Positions 132-30,624 of a stretch of 34,319 nt of DNA are shown here, one piece after another. Where the stretch lies: the NCBI GenBank assembly GCA_029974695.1, contig JARKQW010000029.1, positions 1 to 34,319 on the forward strand, written 5' to 3'. Within the stretch, counting starts at the first letter, position 1. Each line of letters starts with the position of its first letter. The position numbers and the translations under genes are program-made. Source of the DNA: Syntrophobacteraceae bacterium (lineage in GTDB: Bacteria; Desulfobacterota; Syntrophobacteria; Syntrophobacterales; Syntrophobacteraceae). Under the pieces are notes generated by a model. The model did no database searches, was not told the origin of the DNA, and was given only the letters and a program-made list of their open reading frames with translations.

Positions 132-1796
<1,665 letters not shown>

Positions 1797-1826
1797 TCAG
1801 AAGACGGGATGAAAGAATCGCCGGGT

Positions 1827-2114
1827 CTATTCAATGACCGCCAGGATGTCATCTTCCCGCATGATGAGGAGCTCTTCGCCTTCCACCTTGATCTCGTTGC
1901 CGGCGTATTTGCTGAAGAGCACACGATCGCCCGCTTTGACGTCCAGTGGTCTTCGGCTGCCGTCCTCCATCAGCTTTCCGTTGCCGACGGCGAGGACTTC
2001 TCCCTGCACGGGTTTTTCCTTGGCGGTGTCGGGGATGATGATTCCCCCGGCCGTCTTCTGTTCTTCCTCGGTTCGCCTGACCACAACTCGATCATTGAGC
2101 GGTTTCAGTTTCAT
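1827..2114 (-). CDS. groS: 10 kDa co-chaperonin GroES
   Basis: GroES caps the GroEL ring. The 95-residue product starts [14 protein letters not shown] and contains the mobile-loop region [19 protein letters not shown] and the typical [20 protein letters not shown] and ILAVIE C-terminal strands. The frame stays open 47 codons further upstream, to 2255. The start at 2114 is chosen because homology begins exactly there and because the ATG is preceded by GGAAAGGAG at good spacing. The leader of about 140 bases contains no recognised gene. This is the first gene of the groES-groEL operon, controlled by the CIRCE element upstream. Confidence 0.97.
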
Positions 2115-2248
2115 GGATTCGGCTCCTTTCCAATTCGTCAGTACACCAGTTGGGATTTGAACGAAGGCGGGGACCCGGCTTCTTCCGGGAGGGCCCCTTT
2201 TGTTCGGCTCTTCAAGCCGATTGCGAGGGCACACACCGCCCTCTTCTA

Positions 2249-2275
2249 TTAGCACTCAGACTTAGTGAGTGCTTA
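2249..2275 (-). promoter_or_regulatory. CIRCE operator (HrcA binding site) of groESL
   Basis: On the plus strand the site reads TTAGCACTC, nine bases, GAGTGCTTA. The CIRCE consensus is TTAGCACTC-N9-GAGTGCTAA, so 17 of 18 arm positions match. HrcA, the heat-shock repressor, is the known ligand of this element in many bacteria; no hrcA gene is in the window. The element overlaps the -10 box of the groESL promoter and contains the stop codon of the upstream kinase gene (2262-2264). Confidence 0.95.
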
Positions 2276-3968
2276 TAATCATTCGTGGATTGCTTTGCAA
2301 GGGGGAAGAAGTGGGGATGGGGAAAAAAAGTGAAAAGGTGGTGCCCCCCTCATCGTGGTGAGTCACCTCGATACGCCCGCCGGCATTTTCCACCAGTTGA
2401 TAGACGATGCTGAGTCCCAGGCCGGTTCCGCTCTGCTTGGTGGTGAAAAACGGCTCGAAGACCCGGTCCCGAATCTCCGCCGAAATCCCTTGCCCCCGGT
2501 CTCGAATATCAATGCGGGCCTCGGGTACCGGGGAATCTTTCCTCGAGCTCCGGCTCACCCGGATGGACAGGTCTCCGCCGTCCGGCATCGCTTCCAGGGC
2601 ATTCACCAGTAGATTCCAGAGAATCTGTTGAAAATGATGAGGGTCCAGGGACAAGGTAGGACCGTCGTCAAAAACGGTCCGGATTCGATGGAGGACAGAA
2701 ACCCTCTCTCGCGATCTCAACAAGGCCACGACCTCCCGGATCGCGGAACACACCGACAGGTCCTCGATCCTTCCGGGCTTTCTGGACCCCTTTGCCAACC
2801 ACAAGAAATCGTTGACCAGGTCTTTGATCCGGAGGATCTCTCGATCCACGATGTCCATGAGCCTCGATTGGATCGAATCCGCCTGGATTTCCCCCCGCAG
2901 CATTTGGAAGGACCCGCTCATGGCCGCCAACGGGTTCTTGATTTCATGGGCGATTTCCGCCGCGATCTTCCCGGCAAAGGCCAGCCGTTCCATCCGCCGC
3001 ACGTGATCTTCCATGGCCTTAAGATGGGTTAGGTCATGAAAGATGACGATCCAGCCGGAGACCCCCCCGTCCCCTTCCTGGAGAACCGAAACCGTGTACC
3101 CCAGGGTCAGGTCCTCCCCATCGGGTCGACGGTAGTGGATTTCCTTTCTTCTCGTGCTGCGTACGGCCGAAGAAAGGGACGACGGGACCTCCCGGGACCA
3201 GTCGACGGGATTCACCGAAGAAAATACCTCTTGGAGGGGCCGCCCCCGAAGTTCTTCCGCCTTCAAACCCAGCGTCTCCAGGGCCGCCCGATTCCAGAAA
3301 AGCACCGTGCCCTTCTCGTCGATGGTGAGGAGTCCGCTGCTTATGCTTTCGACAATGTTGCGATGCAGGGCCTCCAGTTGTCGCAGGTCCGATTTCTGCT
3401 TTTCCACCTGACGACTCGAACTCCTCAGCTCTTCGGCGAGATATCCGCTGAGATAGGCCACCAGGTAAAACCCCGCAATGCTCATGAGTATGGTGATGAA
3501 ATAGGTGCCGGAGTCCCTCAGGTGGGTGGTGTCGGCCACGATCTGCAGGGGAGAGATCCAGCCGAAGTATTGAAGATCGAGAAGGAATCCGTAGGAAAGG
3601 CTGCACATGGAGGCGGTGAGGAGGCTCCCCCGACGTTGCAGCAGGAGGGCGGCACTGATGATGACCGGCATGTAGAGAAACGCAAAGAGGCTCTCGATCC
3701 CTCCCGAAAGAAAGATCAGGACCGTCACCGCTTCCACGTCGAAAAAGAGCTGAATGTAGCCGAACCGTTCCAGGTGCCGGATGTGTTTCAAGCTGACCGC
3801 GGCCACGATGGTGAAGAGGAAGATCACCATGGCAAAGAAGTACAGGGGCTGAATACGAGCGGCCAGGAGGTCCCCCTCCCGGCGACTCTGCACCACCAGG
3901 GTGAGCACCAGAAAGAAGACCCCGAGCAGGAGGCGGAAGAGGAGGAGCCCCTGGATCTTGCGCTTCAT
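2262..3968 (-). CDS. pilS: PilS-like membrane sensor histidine kinase
   Basis: Probable sensor kinase of the PilS/NtrB type, which senses a membrane or pilin signal and phosphorylates an NtrC-type regulator. The N-terminal 180 residues hold about six hydrophobic segments, followed by a linker helix, a PAS domain (about residues 200-315), a HisKA box with AHEIKNPLAAM (His341) and a HATPase domain with DRGQGI, FEPFFTTK and GTGLGLSIV. The ATG at 3968 is preferred because GGAG lies six bases upstream and the first membrane segment follows. A GTG at 4019 would add 17 residues and begin six bases after the pilC stop. It follows pilC in the same direction. A pilR-type regulator gene, the usual next gene, is absent; groES follows. 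The last codons overlap the groESL promoter and CIRCE. Confidence 0.85.
   Translation of the reverse strand: MKRKIQGLLLFRLLLGVFFLVLTLVVQSRREGDLLAARIQPLYFFAMVIFLFTIVAAVSLKHIRHLERFGYIQLFFDVEAVTVLIFLSGGIESLFAFLYMPVIISAALLLQRRGSLLTASMCSLSYGFLLDLQYFGWISPLQIVADTTHLRDSGTYFITILMSIAGFYLVAYLSGYLAEELRSSSRQVEKQKSDLRQLEALHRNIVESISSGLLTIDEKGTVLFWNRAALETLGLKAEELRGRPLQEVFSSVNPVDWSREVPSSLSSAVRSTRRKEIHYRRPDGEDLTLGYTVSVLQEGDGGVSGWIVIFHDLTHLKAMEDHVRRMERLAFAGKIAAEIAHEIKNPLAAMSGSFQMLRGEIQADSIQSRLMDIVDREILRIKDLVNDFLWLAKGSRKPGRIEDLSVCSAIREVVALLRSRERVSVLHRIRTVFDDGPTLSLDPHHFQQILWNLLVNALEAMPDGGDLSIRVSRSSRKDSPVPEARIDIRDRGQGISAEIRDRVFEPFFTTKQSGTGLGLSIVYQLVENAGGRIEVTHHDEGGTTFSLFFPIPTSSPLQSNPRMIISTH
2272..2300 (-). promoter_or_regulatory. 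Housekeeping-sigma promoter of groESL
   Basis: Read on the minus strand, TTGCAA (2295-2300) and TATAAG (2272-2277) are separated by exactly 17 bases. They sit immediately upstream of, and overlap, the CIRCE operator. Both hexamers lie within the coding sequence of the upstream sensor kinase gene. Confidence 0.7.
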
Positions 3969-4025
3969 GGAGAGCTCCGTGCGGGCGGATGGGGGCTGTG
4001 CATCCCATTCGGGAGACACGGGGCC

Positions 4026-5240
4026 CTATCCTCGACCCACCACGTCCGCGATCTGGAAAATGGGCAGGTACATGGCAATGAGCAGAAATCCGATGGTGAC
4101 CCCCAAAAACACGATCATGAGGGGCTCGAGCATGGAGGTGAGGGCTTCCACGGCGATGTCCACTTCCTCGTCGTAGAAGTCCGCGATTTTGCTCAGCATC
4201 TGGTCCAGGGCGCCGGTGGCCTCACCGATGGCAATCATCTGGGTGACCATGGGAGGAAACACGGCGGTTTCTTCCAGAGGCTCGGCCACGGTGCGGCCTT
4301 CGGCGATGGCGGCCCGTGCCTTGCGAATGGCCCGTTCGATGACCGTATTTCCCGAGGTGGCCGCAACGATGTCCAGGCCTTCCAGGATGGGCACGCCGCT
4401 CGAGAGCATGGTTCCCAGGGTCCGGGTGAATCGGGCCACCGCCACCTTGCGAATGAGAATGCCGAAGACCGGGGCCTTGAGGAAAAGGCGGTCCGTGATG
4501 TCCCGGCCCTTCTCCGTCTTGCGCACCCGCTTGAGCAGAAAAATGAGAACGATCAGGCCCAGGACCATCCAATGGAAATAGGCCTTGGTGAAATCGCTGA
4601 CGTTCATGACAAACAGGGTGAGGGCCGGCAGCTTTGCCCCGGCATCCTTGAAAAGGCCTGCGAAAACGGGGATCACGTAAATGAGGATGACGGCCACGAC
4701 GATGATGGCGATGGCCACGACGATGATGGGGTAAGTCATCGCCCCTTTGACCTTCTTCTTGAGGTTGGCCACTTTTTCGATGTAAGCCGCCAGGCGGCCC
4801 AGGATGGTGTCCAAAATGCCGCCCGCCTCCCCCGCCGCCACCAGGTTGACGAAAAGATCGTCAAAGGCCTTGGGATGCTTTCGAATGGCATCGGACAGGG
4901 TCGCCCCTTCCTCCACGTCCACCTTCACCTGTTTGACGATCCTTCGAAAGGTGGGATTCTCCTGCTGTTCCCGGAGGATTTCCAGGGCCTGCACCAGGGG
5001 TAGACCGGCATCGATCATGGTGGCAAACTGCCGCACGAAGATCACCAGGTCCCGTTCCTTGATCTTTGCCTGCAGGAAAGGAAGGTACTCGCTGAGGTCC
5101 TTGGGCTTCTGTTTTAGGCTTGTGATGTTGATGCCTTTGCGAGTCAGAAGTTGCTGGGCGATGCCGGGATTGTCCGCTTCCATTTCCCCTTTTTGCTTCT
5201 TCCCGGCCCGGTCTGTTCCTTTCCAAAGATAAATAGGCAT
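4026..5240 (-). CDS. pilC: Type IV pilus inner-membrane platform protein PilC
   Basis: PilC/GspF-family polytopic protein that couples the pilus motor ATPases to pilin assembly in the inner membrane. The 404 residues match the usual length. It starts MPIYLWKGTDRAGKKQKGEM, typical of PilC, and has two GspF repeats. The first (about residues 70-190) includes FVRQFATMIDAGLPLVQALE. The second (about 270-395) includes FTRTLGTMLSSGVPILEGLD. Membrane segments are visible near residues 170-195, 220-240 and 375-395. It lies between pilB (54 bases upstream) and pilS (6 to 57 bases downstream, depending on the pilS start), so one operon is likely. Confidence 0.95.
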   Translation of the reverse strand: MPIYLWKGTDRAGKKQKGEMEADNPGIAQQLLTRKGINITSLKQKPKDLSEYLPFLQAKIKERDLVIFVRQFATMIDAGLPLVQALEILREQQENPTFRRIVKQVKVDVEEGATLSDAIRKHPKAFDDLFVNLVAAGEAGGILDTILGRLAAYIEKVANLKKKVKGAMTYPIIVVAIAIIVVAVILIYVIPVFAGLFKDAGAKLPALTLFVMNVSDFTKAYFHWMVLGLIVLIFLLKRVRKTEKGRDITDRLFLKAPVFGILIRKVAVARFTRTLGTMLSSGVPILEGLDIVAATSGNTVIERAIRKARAAIAEGRTVAEPLEETAVFPPMVTQMIAIGEATGALDQMLSKIADFYDEEVDIAVEALTSMLEPLMIVFLGVTIGFLLIAMYLPIFQIADVVGRG

Positions 5241-5294
5241 GAGTCTCTCCTGTTGGGGCGGAGGGGTCGGCCGCCGTGACGCCTTCCCCGGCCA

Positions 5295-6989
5295 CTAATC
5301 CTTGACGGAACAACGGATCACTTCCTCGATGGAAGTAATTCCGGCCTTGAGCTTGTTGATGCCGCTGCGCCGGAGAGTCACCATTCCCAGCCGAACCGAT
5401 TCCTTCTTGATCTCCGCCGAGGAGGCCCCCAAGAGCACCAGTTCCCGGATGGGATCGTGCATCGGCATGACTTCATACAGGGCGATTCTGCCCCGGTATC
5501 CCGTATGATTGCATACGGGACAGCCCTTTCCCAGGTAACAGGCAAAAGACCCCAGCTCGTCTTCTCGAACCTCCAGGTCCAGCAACGCTTCCGGCGGAAC
5601 GTTTTCCTCGATGCGGCATTCCGTGCAAACCCGGCGGGCCAGCCGCTGGGCCACCACCAGGTTGACCGCGGAGGACACCAGGAAGGATTCCACCCCCATG
5701 TTCAGGAGCCGACTGATGGTGCTGGGGGCATCATTGGTGTGAAGGGTGCTCAGGACCAGGTGACCGGTCAATGCGGCCTTGATCCCGATTTCCGCGGTCT
5801 CGAAATCCCGGATTTCCCCCACCATGATGATGTCCGGGTCCTGCCTCAAAAACGAGCGCAAAGCCGAAGCGAAATTGAGCCCGATGGCATCCAGGATCTG
5901 CACCTGGTTGATCCCGGGAAGGTTGAATTCCACGGGGTCTTCCGCCGTGGATATGTTGTGACTGGTCTTGTTCAGCTCCGCCAAGGCACTGTACAGCGTG
6001 GTCGTCTTCCCGCTCCCCGTGGGACCGGTGACCAGTACCATGCCGTAGGGGGCATGAATGGCGGAACGGAAGGCCTTGTACTGGGATTCTTCGAAACCCA
6101 ACTTGGTCATGTCCACCTGGAGGTTGGACTTGTCCAGGAGCCGAAGGACCACCTTTTCTCCAAACAGGGTCGGGAGAACCGACACCCGGAAATCCATCTC
6201 CTTGCCCTTGGCCTTGAGCTTGATGCGCCCGTCCTGGGGAAGCCTCCGTTCGGCAATATCGAGCCGGCTCATGATCTTGATTCGCGAAATGATGGCATTG
6301 CGCAGGGCCAGGGGAGGACGCATGATCTCGTGGAGCATTCCGTCGATGCGAAAACGCACCCGCATCATCTTTTCGTAGGGCTCCACGTGGATGTCGCTTG
6401 CCTGCTTTCGGATGGCGTCCATGAGGATGAGGTTCACCAGTTTTACCACCGGCGCCTGTTCCGCCGCATCCTCGAGGAAGGACAGGTCCACGTCCTCCTG
6501 GGATTCCACCACATCGACGTCCACCTCTTCCTTGAGCATGCCCAGCATGTCTTCGATGTTTTCATCGGCCCCGTAATGCTGACCGATGATCTTCTTGATG
6601 GACGTCTCCGAGGCCACGTGGACGTGGATGTTCTTTCGGGTGAGGAAGCGGATGTCGTCGATGACGAACAGGTTTCCCGGGTCCGCCATGGCCACGTTCA
6701 GGGTGTTGCCCATGATGCCGAAGGGAATTGCCTGGTATTTTTGAGCGACATCCATGGGAATCAGGCTGATGACGGCCTTGGGGACCGAAAGTTTCGCCAG
6801 GTTTACCTCGGGGACATGGAACTGGCGCGCCAAGAACCCCACCAGGGTGTCTTCGCCGATCATCCCCAGCCTGATGAGCACGGCCCCGATGCGCTCCCCG
6901 GTCTGGTTGTGCTCTTCCAGGGCACGAGCCAGCTGGTCGTTGTCGAGCAACCCTTCGGAAACCAACAATTCGCCGATCTTCTTGGACAC
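5295..6989 (-). CDS. pilB: Type IV pilus assembly ATPase PilB
   Basis: Hexameric cytoplasmic ATPase driving pilus extension (GspE/PilB family). The 564-residue product has an N-terminal MshEN/GspE_N region (residues 1-140) and a C-terminal ATPase. Walker A GPTGSGKT is at 322-329, the Asp box AEDPVEF at 349-355, Walker B DPDIIMVGEIRD at 384-395 and the His box GHLVLSTLHTNDA at 409-421. A zinc-binding cysteine set is at 455, 458, 490 and 493. The start is GTG at 6989, with only a weak ribosome site (GAAGG about 12 bases upstream). It is the first gene of the pilB-pilC-pilS set. A GspE of a type II secretion system is less likely because pilS and a PilC-type platform protein follow. Confidence 0.95.
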   Translation of the reverse strand: MSKKIGELLVSEGLLDNDQLARALEEHNQTGERIGAVLIRLGMIGEDTLVGFLARQFHVPEVNLAKLSVPKAVISLIPMDVAQKYQAIPFGIMGNTLNVAMADPGNLFVIDDIRFLTRKNIHVHVASETSIKKIIGQHYGADENIEDMLGMLKEEVDVDVVESQEDVDLSFLEDAAEQAPVVKLVNLILMDAIRKQASDIHVEPYEKMMRVRFRIDGMLHEIMRPPLALRNAIISRIKIMSRLDIAERRLPQDGRIKLKAKGKEMDFRVSVLPTLFGEKVVLRLLDKSNLQVDMTKLGFEESQYKAFRSAIHAPYGMVLVTGPTGSGKTTTLYSALAELNKTSHNISTAEDPVEFNLPGINQVQILDAIGLNFASALRSFLRQDPDIIMVGEIRDFETAEIGIKAALTGHLVLSTLHTNDAPSTISRLLNMGVESFLVSSAVNLVVAQRLARRVCTECRIEENVPPEALLDLEVREDELGSFACYLGKGCPVCNHTGYRGRIALYEVMPMHDPIRELVLLGASSAEIKKESVRLGMVTLRRSGINKLKAGITSIEEVIRCSVKD

Positions 6990-7079
6990 GAACGCTTAAC
7001 CCTTCTCTGAACGTCGCCGCCTGTTCGGATTCTCAGGTTTCTCCGGCATCGACCCTTCCCCGAAACGCTCTCCCATTAT

Positions 7080-7100
7080 CGCATCGTGGGTTTTGATGCG
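7080..7100. promoter_or_regulatory. Inverted repeat between divergent pilB and PxxKW genes
   Basis: CGCATC (7080-7085) and GATGCG (7095-7100) form a perfect six-base inverted repeat around nine bases. It lies between pilB, which reads left, and the small cysteine-rich gene, which reads right. The position suits a shared operator. A GATAAT sequence on the minus strand at 7074-7079 could be a -10 box for pilB. The binding protein is unknown. Confidence 0.35.
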
Positions 7101-7137
7101 CCACGAGATTTTGGGCCGATACGGACGATCAAAAGGC

Positions 7138-7165
7138 TTGACAGGGCCGAATTCCTGGTTATTAT
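7138..7165 (+). promoter_or_regulatory. Strong housekeeping promoter of the PxxKW gene
   Basis: A perfect TTGACA (7138-7143) is followed after 16 bases by TATTAT (7160-7165), a five-of-six match to TATAAT. The hexamers are about 55 bases upstream of the ATG at 7221, which has its own GGAGG (7208-7212). Confidence 0.7.
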
Positions 7166-7220
7166 TCGCTGCAATTTTCCTGGAGGATGGACCAAAATAT
7201 CAGATTCGGAGGTATTTGTC

Positions 7221-7508
7221 ATGATTTGTGCCACTGTGAAGGCCGGTTCGGAATGCGCCTTCATGACCAAAAGCGGTTGCGGGTTCAACGGGGGCTCCTG
7301 TCATCCCATTGTGGATCAGTGTGAAGGTTGTCAGCGAGTGGTGGATTTGGCCTCGGGAAGATACTGCAACAGTTACCCCAATCCTGCGGCCAAGTGGAGG
7401 ACCAGCGTGTGCAACTTCGCCAGCCACGCCAAGGCGTCCACCCAGGCGCAACAGCAAGCGAAAATCAACCCCCTCAAGGCCTCGAAGCGAAGCACCAAGC
7501 GAAAGTAA
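7221..7508 (+). CDS. PxxKW family cysteine-rich small protein
   Basis: A 95-residue protein of unknown function with eight cysteines (3, 12, 20, 27, 34, 37, 49, 64), including CEGC (34-37), and the PNPAAKW motif (53-59) that names the PxxKW family of cysteine-rich proteins known from deltaproteobacteria. The C-terminal 25 residues are Lys/Gln/Ser-rich and cysteine-free. The frame is open further upstream to 7086, but the ATG at 7221 has GGAGG at eight-base spacing and removes a leader that would contain the promoter. The cysteine pattern suggests metal or iron-sulfur binding, which is inference. It is monocistronic: a good promoter precedes it and a long inverted repeat follows. Confidence 0.85.
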   Translation: MICATVKAGSECAFMTKSGCGFNGGSCHPIVDQCEGCQRVVDLASGRYCNSYPNPAAKWRTSVCNFASHAKASTQAQQQAKINPLKASKRSTKRK

Positions 7509-7811
7509 CGGATCATTGGGAGAGGTGGGAGTGATCCGTCCGGCCGGCCGGAACGAGTCCCCCTCGATGTCATTGCTCTCACTTCCCAATGACACCCTTT
7601 CAGGGGCACCTCTTTTCTATCGGAATCCCCCGGGAAAATCTTCATCGAATCCTGCCTGCGGAAATCGGCGCAAACCCTCGCCCCGAGATGCCTTCGGCTT
7701 TGTATGTGCTTTTACCGCCGGGACGGGTTATGGTATTCTCACTCAAGGCAGGAGATTTCAACCCATCGGCCTGTGTTTTTGGCCGGGAAGTGTCGCAAGG
7801 ATACGGGGACG
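7509..7811. other. Intergenic region with long-range inverted repeat
   Basis: About 300 bases with no credible gene. TCATTGGGA (7513-7521) and TCCCAATGA (7584-7592) form a perfect nine-base inverted repeat enclosing 62 bases. Inside it are a second hairpin, CGGATCA to TGATCCG (7510-7536), and the palindrome TCCGGCCGGCCGGA (7538-7551). There is no T tract, so intrinsic termination is uncertain. I could not identify a convincing promoter for the following porA gene. Confidence 0.4.
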
Positions 7812-9044
7812 ATGCCAAGAAAGGATTCCAACACAGTGGAGCGCACACTTATTTTGACGGGCACTCAGGCAGCCGCTCTGGCTGCCAGGCTTTCTCGCGT
7901 TCAGGTGATCACCGCCTATCCGATCACGCCGCAATCCAAGATCCCCGAGATCTTATCCGAGTACGTGGAGAAGGGAGAGCTCCAGGCCGAGTTCGTGCGG
8001 GTGGAGAGCGAACATTCCGCCATGGGGGTCTGTATTTCCGCCTCCCTGGTGGGGGCCAGGGTGTTTACGGCCACCGCCGCCAACGGGTTGGCCTATATGC
8101 ACGAGCAGCTGCACTGGGCCGCCGGGGCGCGCCTTCCCATCGTGATGCCGGTCACCAACCGCGGCCTGGGGGCCCCGTGGACCATCCTGAACGACATGCA
8201 GGATACCCTCTCCCAGCGGGATACGGGTTGGATTCAATTCCACTGCATGAACAACCAGGAGGTGTTGGACAAGATCATCCTGGCCTACCGGGTTGCCGAA
8301 CAGATCATGGTTCCCATCATGGTCTGTTTTGACGGCTTCCGGCTTTCCCACACCATGATGCCCGTCTCCGTTCCCCCCCAGGACCGGGTGGATGCCTTCC
8401 TGCCGCCCTACCGCACCCCGTACGAACTCAGTCCTCACAATCCCGTAAACATCAACCCCGTGGTCATGTCGGACCCCTTGCCCGACAGCCGGGGAAGGCT
8501 TTGTCCCAGCTACATGGGCTTTCGTTTTCGGCTGCAGGAGGAGCTCGAGTCGGCACTTGCCGTGATCGCGGATGCAGGGCGCCGGTTCGGGGAGTTCACC
8601 GGCCGTTTTTACGACGACGTGCTGTATCGCTACCGGGCGCAGGATGCGGACGTTCTTTTCGTCACCATGGGCTCTCTTTCCAGTGAAGCGACCGACGCCG
8701 CGGACCTGCTCCGGGAAGAGGGCGTGAAGGCGGGAGTGGTCGGCCTGGGGGTCTATCGACCCTTTCCCGCCCGGGAATTGGCCGAGGCCGTGCAAAACGC
8801 AAAGGGAATCGCCGTCCTGGAAAAGGGGATCAGTTACGGCTACGAAGGAGCCCTGGCCACGGAGCTCAAGGCGGCCCTTTTTAGCCACAACGGCCGTCGC
8901 CCCACCCTTCACAACTACATCCTGGGTCTGGGGGGAAAAGACGTTAAGCCCTCGGACCTGACGGGACCGGCCAGGGAAGTCATGGAATCCGCTCACAAAG
9001 GGATTCGGCAGGAAAAACCCCGCTGGCTGGGGTACGGAATCTGA
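7812..9044 (+). CDS. 2-oxoacid:ferredoxin oxidoreductase, alpha subunit (PorA-like)
   Basis: Alpha subunit of the pyruvate/2-ketoacid:ferredoxin oxidoreductase family, which oxidatively decarboxylates 2-oxoacids to acyl-CoA and reduces ferredoxin, or runs in reverse. The 410-residue product has the pyrimidine-binding domain with the family segment AYPITPQSKIPE (about 33-44), ESEHSAMG, FTATAANGLAYMHEQ and PIVMPVTNRGLGAPW, then the transketolase C-terminal-like domain (about 270-400). ATG 7812 is chosen because homology starts about 15 residues later; the frame is open upstream to 7704. The beta-subunit gene follows after 34 bases. The gamma and delta (ferredoxin-like) subunits normally encoded beside it are absent. 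Substrate cannot be assigned from sequence; pyruvate or a branched-chain 2-oxoacid are possible. Confidence 0.9.
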   Translation: MPRKDSNTVERTLILTGTQAAALAARLSRVQVITAYPITPQSKIPEILSEYVEKGELQAEFVRVESEHSAMGVCISASLVGARVFTATAANGLAYMHEQLHWAAGARLPIVMPVTNRGLGAPWTILNDMQDTLSQRDTGWIQFHCMNNQEVLDKIILAYRVAEQIMVPIMVCFDGFRLSHTMMPVSVPPQDRVDAFLPPYRTPYELSPHNPVNINPVVMSDPLPDSRGRLCPSYMGFRFRLQEELESALAVIADAGRRFGEFTGRFYDDVLYRYRAQDADVLFVTMGSLSSEATDAADLLREEGVKAGVVGLGVYRPFPARELAEAVQNAKGIAVLEKGISYGYEGALATELKAALFSHNGRRPTLHNYILGLGGKDVKPSDLTGPAREVMESAHKGIRQEKPRWLGYGI

Positions 9045-9078
9045 TATTTCGCCAAGAGAAAGGGGCCAGGCAGGAACT

Positions 9079-9981
9079 ATGTCGACGACGATCATGGAAT
9101 TCCCCGACCAGGAATATATTCTCCCCGGCACCCGCACCTGTGCCGGTTGCGGCTTGCCCATTGCGTATCGCTATATCCTCAAGGCCTTAGGCCCAAAAAC
9201 CATCGTAACTCACCCCGCATGCTGCCTCACCATTTTGCACGGGATCTACCCCAGGACCCCCGTCGCCGTCAATGCGGTGAACAACACCTTTGCCAGCACG
9301 GCGGCTTCCGCTTCGGGATTGGCTGCAGGGCTCAAGGCGACGGGCCGGGAGGATTACACCGTCCTTGCCATGGCCGGTGACGGCGGGACCTTCGATATGG
9401 GCATCCAGGCCCTCAGCGGGGCCGCCGAGAGGGAAACGGATTTCATCTACGTATGCTACGACAACGAAGCCTACATGAACACCGGCGTCCAGCGATCCAG
9501 CGCCACCCCTTCGGGGGCTCTCACCACCACCACCGCCGTGGTGCCCAAGGAACAACCCAAGAAGGATTTCATCCAGATCATGGAGGCGCATCATCCCGCC
9601 TATCTCGCCACCACCTGTTCCTCCTTTCCTGGAGACCTCTACAACAAGTTCGCCAAGGCCAAGGACATCCGCGGGACCCGCTTCGTCCATCTCATGGTCC
9701 CCTGCCCGTCCGGCTGGGGATTTCCCACCAGGGACACGGTGAAAATCGGTAGACTGGCGGTGGAAACCGGGGTGGTCGTGCTCTACGAAGTGGAGCGCGG
9801 CGGGCCCATTCGCCTCACGGGCAAGAGCCTCAGCATGGCGCGAAGCGGCAGGAAGCGACCGGTGGAAGAATATCTTCGGCCTCAAGGTCGGTTCAAGAAA
9901 ATGACTCCCGAGCGGATCGCTCTTTTCCAGCAGGAGGTGGACCAACGGTGGGCGGGGCTCCTGCAACGGGCGGGATTCTAG
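9079..9981 (+). CDS. 2-oxoacid:ferredoxin oxidoreductase, beta subunit (PorB-like)
   Basis: TPP-binding beta subunit that pairs with the upstream alpha subunit. The 300-residue product has the thiamine diphosphate motif GDGGTFDMGIQALSGAAER beginning at residue 101 and the downstream YDNEAYMNTGVQRS segment that completes cofactor and Mg binding. Cysteines that fit ligands for the proximal 4Fe-4S cluster are seen at 21, 24, 48 or 49, and 209 (CAGC, PACC, VPCP). The ATG follows AGGA six bases upstream. It is the last gene of the plus-strand pair and converges on fabH. Electron acceptor and substrate are not visible here. Confidence 0.92.
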   Translation: MSTTIMEFPDQEYILPGTRTCAGCGLPIAYRYILKALGPKTIVTHPACCLTILHGIYPRTPVAVNAVNNTFASTAASASGLAAGLKATGREDYTVLAMAGDGGTFDMGIQALSGAAERETDFIYVCYDNEAYMNTGVQRSSATPSGALTTTTAVVPKEQPKKDFIQIMEAHHPAYLATTCSSFPGDLYNKFAKAKDIRGTRFVHLMVPCPSGWGFPTRDTVKIGRLAVETGVVVLYEVERGGPIRLTGKSLSMARSGRKRPVEEYLRPQGRFKKMTPERIALFQQEVDQRWAGLLQRAGF

Positions 9982-10121
9982 TTCCAGCAACGCGAAAAAG
10001 AACGCTCTTAACGGGTCGACGAGGGTCTCGTCCTCGGGGCGGAGGCCCGAACGGGACCCCAAGGTGTGCTACGAGCCCCGGCTTTCCTCGGGAGGACGGA
10101 GGGGGCCCCGTTTTCGGTTTT

Positions 10122-11135
10122 CTACTCCCACCACCGCAACAAGGCGCTTCCCCAGGTAAAACCCGCCCCGAAAGCAGACATCACCAAGTAGTCCCCCTTG
10201 CGAACCCGGTTTTCCTCCACCACCGCCTGATACAGGCACAAAGGGATGGTTCCCGCGGTGGTGTTGGCATAGCGGTCGATGTTGACGATCACCTTGCTCC
10301 TGTCGATCTTCATGCGGTTGGCACTGGCTTCGATGATGCGCAGGTTGGCCTGGTGAGGGATGAAAAGGGCCACATCGTCTCCCGTCAGCCGGTTCCTCTC
10401 GAGGATCTCCGCAGAAACATTGGCCATCTCGATGACCGCGTGCCTGAAGACCTGCCTGCCCTCCTGGTACACGAAATGTTCCTTGTTCTTGACCGTCTCG
10501 CAACTGGCGGGCCGCTTGCTCCCCCCCGCCTTCATGTGCAGGAAGTCTCCCCCCGCCCCGTCCACGTACTGTACGAAATCCAGGACCCCGTACCCTTCCT
10601 CGGGGCAGGGCTCGAGCAGCGCAGCTCCTGCGGCGTCGCCGAACAGCACACAGGTGTTCCGATCCTCGTAATCGATGATGGTGCTCATGACATCGGATCC
10701 GATCACCAGGACCTTGTCGTACCTGCCCGCCTCGATCATCTGGGCCCCCGTGGTGAGGGCAAAAACAAAGGCCGAACACCCCGCGGACAGGTCGAAGCCC
10801 CAGGCCCGGGAAGCGCCGATCTCCTTTTGCACCAGACAGGCAGTGGCCGGAAAGAGCATGTCGGGAGTGACCGTCCCCACGATGATGACATCGACCTCTT
10901 CGGGAGAAGCCCCCGCCCTCTCGAGACATTCCCGAGCGGCGCGAACAGCCATATAGGAGCTGCCGAGGCCCGGCTCCAGGATCCTTCTTTCGCGGATTCC
11001 CGTACGGGTCACGATCCACTCGTCGGTGGTGTCCACCATGTCCTCAAACTCCCGGTTCGTCATGCGCCGTTCCGGAAGAAAACGGCCCACGGAACGAACG
11101 TATGCGTTTCTCCGCGGCGTTCTTCGATTTGCCAT
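10122..11135 (-). CDS. fabH: Beta-ketoacyl-ACP synthase III (FabH-like)
   Basis: KAS III family enzyme that condenses an acyl-CoA with malonyl-ACP, normally to start fatty-acid synthesis. The 337 residues are slightly longer than typical FabH. The catalytic triad is visible: Cys120 in SAGCSAF, His261 in IPHQAN and Asn291 in YANTTAGTIP. The family segments DEWIVTRTGIRERR and FGDAAGAALL are also present. Its ATG overlaps the stop of the upstream SDR gene by one base (TAATG on the minus strand), so translation is probably coupled. Because it sits with an SDR gene and not a fab operon, it could serve a dedicated acyl or ketoacyl pathway instead of housekeeping synthesis; that is inference. Confidence 0.92.
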   Translation of the reverse strand: MANRRTPRRNAYVRSVGRFLPERRMTNREFEDMVDTTDEWIVTRTGIRERRILEPGLGSSYMAVRAARECLERAGASPEEVDVIIVGTVTPDMLFPATACLVQKEIGASRAWGFDLSAGCSAFVFALTTGAQMIEAGRYDKVLVIGSDVMSTIIDYEDRNTCVLFGDAAGAALLEPCPEEGYGVLDFVQYVDGAGGDFLHMKAGGSKRPASCETVKNKEHFVYQEGRQVFRHAVIEMANVSAEILERNRLTGDDVALFIPHQANLRIIEASANRMKIDRSKVIVNIDRYANTTAGTIPLCLYQAVVEENRVRKGDYLVMSAFGAGFTWGSALLRWWE

Positions 11136-24060: not shown

Positions 24061-24149
24061 GCGAGAGTGGCGGAACCGGCAGACGCACTGGACTTAGGAT
24101 CCAGCCCTGTTGACGCAGGATGGGGGTTCAACTCCCCCCTCTCGCACCA
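24061..24149 (+). tRNA. tRNA-Leu (anticodon UAG)
   Basis: A class II tRNA with a seven-base acceptor stem (GCGAGAG with CTCTCGC), the D arm, an anticodon stem CTGGA/TCCAG with loop CTTAGGA and anticodon TAG at 24095-24097, a long variable arm typical of leucine, a TTC-loop GGTTCAAC, and an encoded CCA at 24147-24149. It reads CUA codons. It is 60 bases upstream of tig. Confidence 0.97.
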
Positions 24150-30463: not shown

Positions 30464-30539
30464 GGGCGGATAGCTCAGCTGGGAGAGCATCGGCCTTACA
30501 AGCCGGGGGTCACAGGTTCGAGCCCTGTTCCGCCCACCA
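30464..30539 (+). tRNA. tRNA-Val (anticodon UAC)
   Basis: Acceptor GGGCGGA pairs with TCCGCCC. The D arm is TAGCTCAGCTGGGAGAGC, the anticodon loop CTTACAA carries TAC at 30497-30499, the T arm reads GGTTCGAGCCC, and CCA is encoded (30537-30539). It reads GUA and probably other valine codons. A second tRNA follows after eight bases. Confidence 0.97.
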
Positions 30540-30547
30540 CGACATGC

Positions 30548-30624
<77 letters not shown>

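Follow-up and report, generated by a model that had tools for sequence, protein, structure and literature searches.

The window, by which we mean the whole analysed stretch of 34,319 nucleotides, comes from a Syntrophobacteraceae assembly of 88.7% completeness and 5.79% contamination. According to Pfam matches its minus strand carries the gene order pilB-pilC-pilS-groES-groEL (Table 1). The pilS-like gene encodes a sensor histidine kinase with 6TM_PilS, PAS, HisKA and HATPase_c domains; both the input and the catalytic domains of a PilS protein were thus found. This domain organization, together with the location behind pilB- and pilC-like genes, resembles the known PilS/PilR systems. In contrast to these, pilS is followed by groES and not by pilR, and a response-regulator match was not obtained for any of the eight scanned ORFs (within 132-11135). 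In three relatives (L006, L016, L018) ileS and lspA are encoded 3' of groEL; the contig of the window ends before reaching these genes. An insertion of groESL between pilS and pilR was thus not observed in these three and was rejected. HATPase_c extends to residue 569 of 585; the kinase tail which overlaps the CIRCE operator is therefore not part of any recognised domain. Three tRNA genes on the plus strand (24061-24146, 30464-30536 and 30548-30621) are the only Rfam matches in the window at the gathering threshold.

Table 1. Positions of genes and sequence elements at the pilS-groESL locus of the window.
Feature	Position	Strand	Basis
groEL (Cpn60)	132..1766	-	Pfam
groES (Cpn10)	1827..2114	-	Pfam
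groES leader, CIRCE to groES ATG, 134 bases	2115..2248	-	sequence and comparison
CIRCE (HrcA operator), TAAGCACTC-N9-GAGTGCTAA	2249..2275	-	motif scan; conserved in relatives
pilS-like sensor histidine kinase, 585 aa	2262..4019	-	ORF list, Pfam
-10 hexamer TATAAG, sharing bases with the first CIRCE arm; 17-base spacing to the -35	2272..2277	-	sequence; kept in relatives
TGATTA, conserved, reaching from just before the -10 into it	2276..2281	-	comparison of 25 genomes
-35 hexamer TTGCAA, encoding L-Q of the kinase tail	2295..2300	-	sequence; kept in relatives
T-tract (7 T) in the FSLFFP codons, possible upstream promoter element	2323..2329	-	codon constraint and comparison
pilC-like (T2SSF), ending 6 bases ahead of the pilS ORF	4026..5240	-	ORF list, Pfam
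pilB-like ATPase (T2SSE, MshEN)	5295..6989	-	Pfam

Probable promoter and HrcA operator at the end of pilS

An earlier note on this DNA had described a groESL promoter and a CIRCE site embedded in the end of the kinase gene, and this anatomy is borne out. Read along the minus strand, TTGCAA (2300-2295) and, after 17 bases, TATAAG (2277-2272) are both kinase codons. The kinase ORF ends with ATT ATA AGC ACT CAC TAA, so that its last residues (IISTH) are encoded by the promoter and the first CIRCE arm, as had been stated, and the stop codon (2264-2262) is located in the CIRCE spacer. The -10 hexamer and the first CIRCE arm have four bases in common.

The CIRCE site (2275-2249) differs from the consensus TTAGCACTC-N9-GAGTGCTAA at one position only; no other match with up to three mismatches is found in the window, and none occurred in 100 shuffles. 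The earlier note had named a missing HrcA homolog as one of two findings that would speak against its reading. An hrcA gene is however present in the same genome on contig C50 (E 1.3e-64; 218.9 bits, cut-off 22.2), and a CIRCE is located upstream of this gene as well. The genome harbours two further groES genes (contigs C141 = L096 and C424 = L095) with differing upstream sequences, both preceded by CIRCE-like sites, one with one mismatch and one with three. A weak CIRCE-like site with three mismatches was also seen at G000:C410:20047-20073 (L004).

HrcA/CIRCE-controlled groESL operons are known from Bacillus subtilis, Geobacter, Desulfovibrio and other bacteria. The locus resembles them in the CIRCE consensus, the location of this site beside the -10, groES-groEL directly downstream and the presence of hrcA in the genome, and judging from these features HrcA control of groESL looks ordinary. 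It differs in that the promoter and one CIRCE arm of the window lie inside the coding sequence of the upstream pilS gene; what is unusual is the placement of the locus and not the switch. Furthermore, the near end of the CIRCE of the window is 134 bases and its far end 161 bases away from the groES ATG, while the five delta-proteobacterial groESL sites in a table of PMC545781 are nearer (-68 to -99).

Two observations count against the promoter call or seem to do so. The -35 of the window matches the consensus in only four of six positions, and an automatic promoter scan of positions 1700-4100 reported no promoter. The scan is silent because its rule demands a T as the last base of the -10. 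We nevertheless call a promoter because the -35, TGATTA and CIRCE occur at fixed positions in 25 genomes of the window's family. In an ungapped alignment of these genomes anchored on CIRCE, the majority base has a mean frequency of 0.96 both at the -35 and at TGATTA, and of 0.96 and 1.00 in the two CIRCE arms. The T-tract further upstream reaches 0.94, and much lower values were obtained for the linker between T-tract and -35 (0.59), the -35/-10 spacer (0.60), the CIRCE spacer (0.56) and the leader (0.46). A TTG is found at offset -25 in 25/25, and the place of the -10 is taken by TATAAG (16/25) or TAAAAG (9/25), the latter being a further point against the call. In the three families of the order the -35 starts 25 (25/25), 26 (8/8) and 27 bases (5/5) before CIRCE; the latter two families possess TATATA (8) and TATATT (5) as -10, again 17 bases after the -35. 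A search with the consensus promoter pattern (up to two mismatches) gave matches in only four of 297 genomes of the phylum, all at the groES locus. These are the four genomes sampled from the window's family (4/4), while none of the seven from the other families of the order matched.

Transcription would be expected to start 6-7 bases past the -10, near 2265, within the CIRCE spacer. Because CIRCE overlaps the -10 and this likely start, HrcA bound to it should cover both and block initiation, and heat would free HrcA and allow groESL to be transcribed. We consider it highly probable that the locus holds an ordinary promoter of the sigma-70 type, repressed by HrcA via CIRCE and situated within the 3' end of pilS or tightly abutting it, and that it is the promoter DNA which is under selection; promoter activity and repression are here inferred from the sequence. 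A different main promoter of groESL, for instance one read by sigma-32, would leave the -35/-10 described here a minor role. Sigma-32-like sites are reported to precede groESL in some delta-proteobacteria (PMC545781), and the genome encodes an RpoH-like sigma factor of nearly full length, whose score of 279 bits is below the curated cut-off of 323. Against this stands that the -35, TGATTA and CIRCE are conserved at fixed spacing, and we regard such an arrangement as quite unlikely.

Adjacency and kinase stop codons within the order

The earlier note had asked whether the overlap is conserved in relatives. This is the case for the adjacency of the genes but not for the overlap of CIRCE with coding sequence, which was found in only three of 38 genomes. 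Kinase, CIRCE and groES lie in line in 38/39 genomes of the order (25/26, 8/8 and 5/5 in the three families), among them Desulfacinum infernum and D. hydrothermale. A groES match was obtained in all 39, and a kinase match in 25/26 genomes of the window's family. Only G010 deviates: at E 1e-60 it gave no kinase match, and its single groES is more divergent and lies in another upstream context. In the class outside the order, 14/16 genomes gave a groES match. Sixteen of their 17 groES loci have a CIRCE site (up to four mismatches), but no kinase match was found upstream of any of the 17, for two of which the upstream stretch covers less than 0.8 kb (about 0.5 kb at L086 and 0.7 kb at L079); second groES copies were read for three of the 14 genomes. 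Because no kinase match lies upstream of these loci, the pilS-groES adjacency appears to be specific for the order as far as it was sampled.

Promoters located in the last part of the preceding gene form a general class, and the locus is similar to its members in that promoter elements double as codons. It is unlike the class in general in that almost every examined genome of the order retains the tight arrangement. The kinase stop codon is found before the -35 in 20 of the 38 genomes, between -35 and -10 in 15 and inside CIRCE in three. In 14/38 it follows the -35 immediately (10 TGA, 4 TAA), giving kinase tails such as …LAK, …LAN and …LVK. G018, counted as between -35 and -10, uses the TGA of TGATTA just ahead of the -10. 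In G009 (L027) the -35 region looks tandem-duplicated by eye, with the kinase stop in the upstream copy.

The three genomes with a stop inside CIRCE are the window and its genus-mate G008 (both in the spacer) and G026 from another family. In the window and G008 the 7-T run is separated from the -35 by 22 bases, compared to 23 in 18/25 genomes of the family. The linker is one base shorter, which shifts the frame, and therefore the common stop (TGA or TAA) after the -35 is missed and the frame continues as far as the TAA of the CIRCE spacer. G026 (L062), the kinase frame of which crosses the whole CIRCE and ends at its final TAA, represents a separate route, since the common phase is kept and the stop is lacking by substitution. 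The extension of the kinase into CIRCE is therefore probably passive. A frame that is not random counts against this: the phase at the -35 is identical in 29/38 genomes, and therefore the frame changes only occasionally. On the supporting side, of the 18/38 genomes with a coding -35, 15 read it in phase 1, two in phase 0 and one in phase 2.

As the overlap of CIRCE and coding sequence is present in 3/38 genomes only, it is probably not what matters functionally; on the sequence comparison, the conserved feature is the promoter together with its tight placement behind pilS. Following our preferred reading, groESL lies directly behind pilS in this order with its promoter packed into or against the pilS 3' end; selection would hold the promoter DNA, and the last residues of the kinase would follow from the frame which happens to cross it. 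The kinase would then end at whichever stop of the promoter or operator falls in the arriving frame, and the locus would be a clear-cut example of how promoter DNA shapes the C-terminus of a protein to which it is unrelated. We did not recognise a paper on a pilS-groESL overlap among the openly licensed literature matches listed, which is weak evidence of absence.

The T-tract in the pilS codons

A further conserved element lies 22 bases upstream of the -35 of the window, in the codons for FSLFFP. The synonymous-constraint test covered 24 of 25 sequences of the family (in G007 the kinase is split over contigs). Among 240 windows of six pilS columns, the TFSLFF codons are the most constrained, and overlapping windows take ranks 1, 2, 4 and 5. 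The middle Phe is encoded by TTT in 24/24 (background 44%), Leu by CTT in 18/19 genomes with Leu at this position (background 19%) and Ser by TCA in 14/24 (background 6%). The T-run comprises 7-8 bases in 22/25 and five bases in 3/25 genomes, at a distance of 20-23 bases from the -35 in 24/25. In G009 the motif is found 41 bases upstream, and by eye a run of five T occupies its normal position.

With about 58-64 bases to the predicted start, the T-tract is situated at the outer limit of a classical UP element. It may be a DNA element spelled out by the codons of pilS; that it contacts the alpha subunit of the polymerase is in our judgement about as likely as not. Outside the window's family the pattern is weaker. 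T-tract (0.82) and linker (0.72) differ less in the second family (8 genomes), of which three Desulfacinum-like genomes have only four T and nevertheless keep the promoter; this counts against such an element. T-runs of the third family vary from 2 to 7.

Two other readings of the T-tract were weighed and rejected. As the U-tract of an intrinsic terminator it could insulate groESL from pil. Terminator-like sites on both strands number five, compared to 2.6 in shuffles, with minus-strand ones inside the pilS coding sequence (e.g. 2352-2331 and 2479-2456), and the long T-runs of most genomes would suit this function. In the window the 40 bases preceding the T-run are more foldable than most of pilS, at the 0.16 fraction of the gene's own background. 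But in the family these 40 bases are not unusually foldable, with a fraction of at most 0.10 in 4/25 genomes and above 0.5 in 11/25, and a consistent hairpin is missing over the 25 genomes. Termination at this place would also remove the pilS stop codon, and we regard a terminator here as very improbable. Still more remote is the possibility that the kinase acquires an alternative tail by -1 ribosomal frameshifting. The heptamer U UUU UUC within the codons of FSLFFP corresponds to the slippery pattern and, in the window, is in the phase required. The -1 frame is closed by the TGA before the -10 in 16/25 genomes but elsewhere in 9/25, so a conserved alternative product is missing in the 25 family genomes.

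PilS relatives from outside the order were compared at 23 of 30 loci, drawn from 34 hand-picked source genomes and omitting the shorter or weaker matches L124-L130. The motif F-x-[LIVM]-x-[FLVI]-P is present in 18/23 with T-runs of 2-4. None of these 18 has a long T-tract, and groES is absent from all fetched stretches. At the protein level, however, a long T-run is less available to these relatives because their motif lacks the two adjacent Phe, which is a further point against the proposed DNA element. In L101-L105, L107, L110 and L111 (same class, outside the order) a lysyl-tRNA synthetase-like frame was seen by eye to start after the PilS relative.

Possible transcription from pil into groESL

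No intrinsic terminator, in the sense of a hairpin with U-run common to relatives, was found between pilS and groES, and a consistent hairpin is absent from the 25 genomes; the leader of the window contains no T-run longer than two. In 36/38 genomes the kinase stop either falls within CIRCE or is separated from it by no more than 52 bases (exceptions G038 with 79 and G037 with 217 bases), so that a terminator would have little space. Because none was found, read-through from pil into groESL is plausible. Given the anatomy described above, the earlier note was right that a polymerase leaving pilS has to traverse CIRCE, and HrcA bound there would obstruct it.

These observations allow a functional coupling, in which transcripts of pilB-pilC-pilS extending into groESL supply chaperonin during piliation, with HrcA on CIRCE acting as a roadblock at normal temperature. 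The adjacency in 38/39 genomes of the order, with no kinase match at the 17 groES loci read outside it, would fit this, as would the scant terminator space and the lack of a consistent hairpin. In passages of PMC10787695, type IV pilus genes of Syntrophobacter(ium) fumaroxidans including a pilS vary with the stage of co-culture and are higher in early co-culture; therefore a natural test condition for read-through may exist. Those passages, however, do not mention groESL, the gene order may be kept through descent alone, and CIRCE overlaps the coding sequence in few genomes only. Nor did we recognise a paper on an HrcA roadblock among the literature matches listed. We therefore treat the coupling as a tentative and rather unlikely reading. 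More doubtful is its extension, that the pilS 3' end serves as a dual-use stretch through much of the order, in which codons spell the T-tract element and often the groESL -35, so that pilus signalling and chaperonin supply would be physically tied and HrcA would set how much pil transcription passes into groESL. Even so, the T-tract and the possible coupling to pil are the parts worth an experiment, and the locus, conserved in syntrophic and sulfate-reducing anaerobes, could be used to probe whether a pilus operon feeds into a chaperonin operon.

A structured regulatory leader of groES is unsupported across the family (mean folding z -0.48, n=25; two below -2). For the window, z is -2.92 for CIRCE, leader and the first 20 groES bases together and -1.77 for the leader alone. 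Just past CIRCE, two hairpins can be drawn in the leaders of the window (134 bases) and G008 (141 bases). The first of them differs in sequence between the two with its pairing kept, and the leaders of other genera are different.
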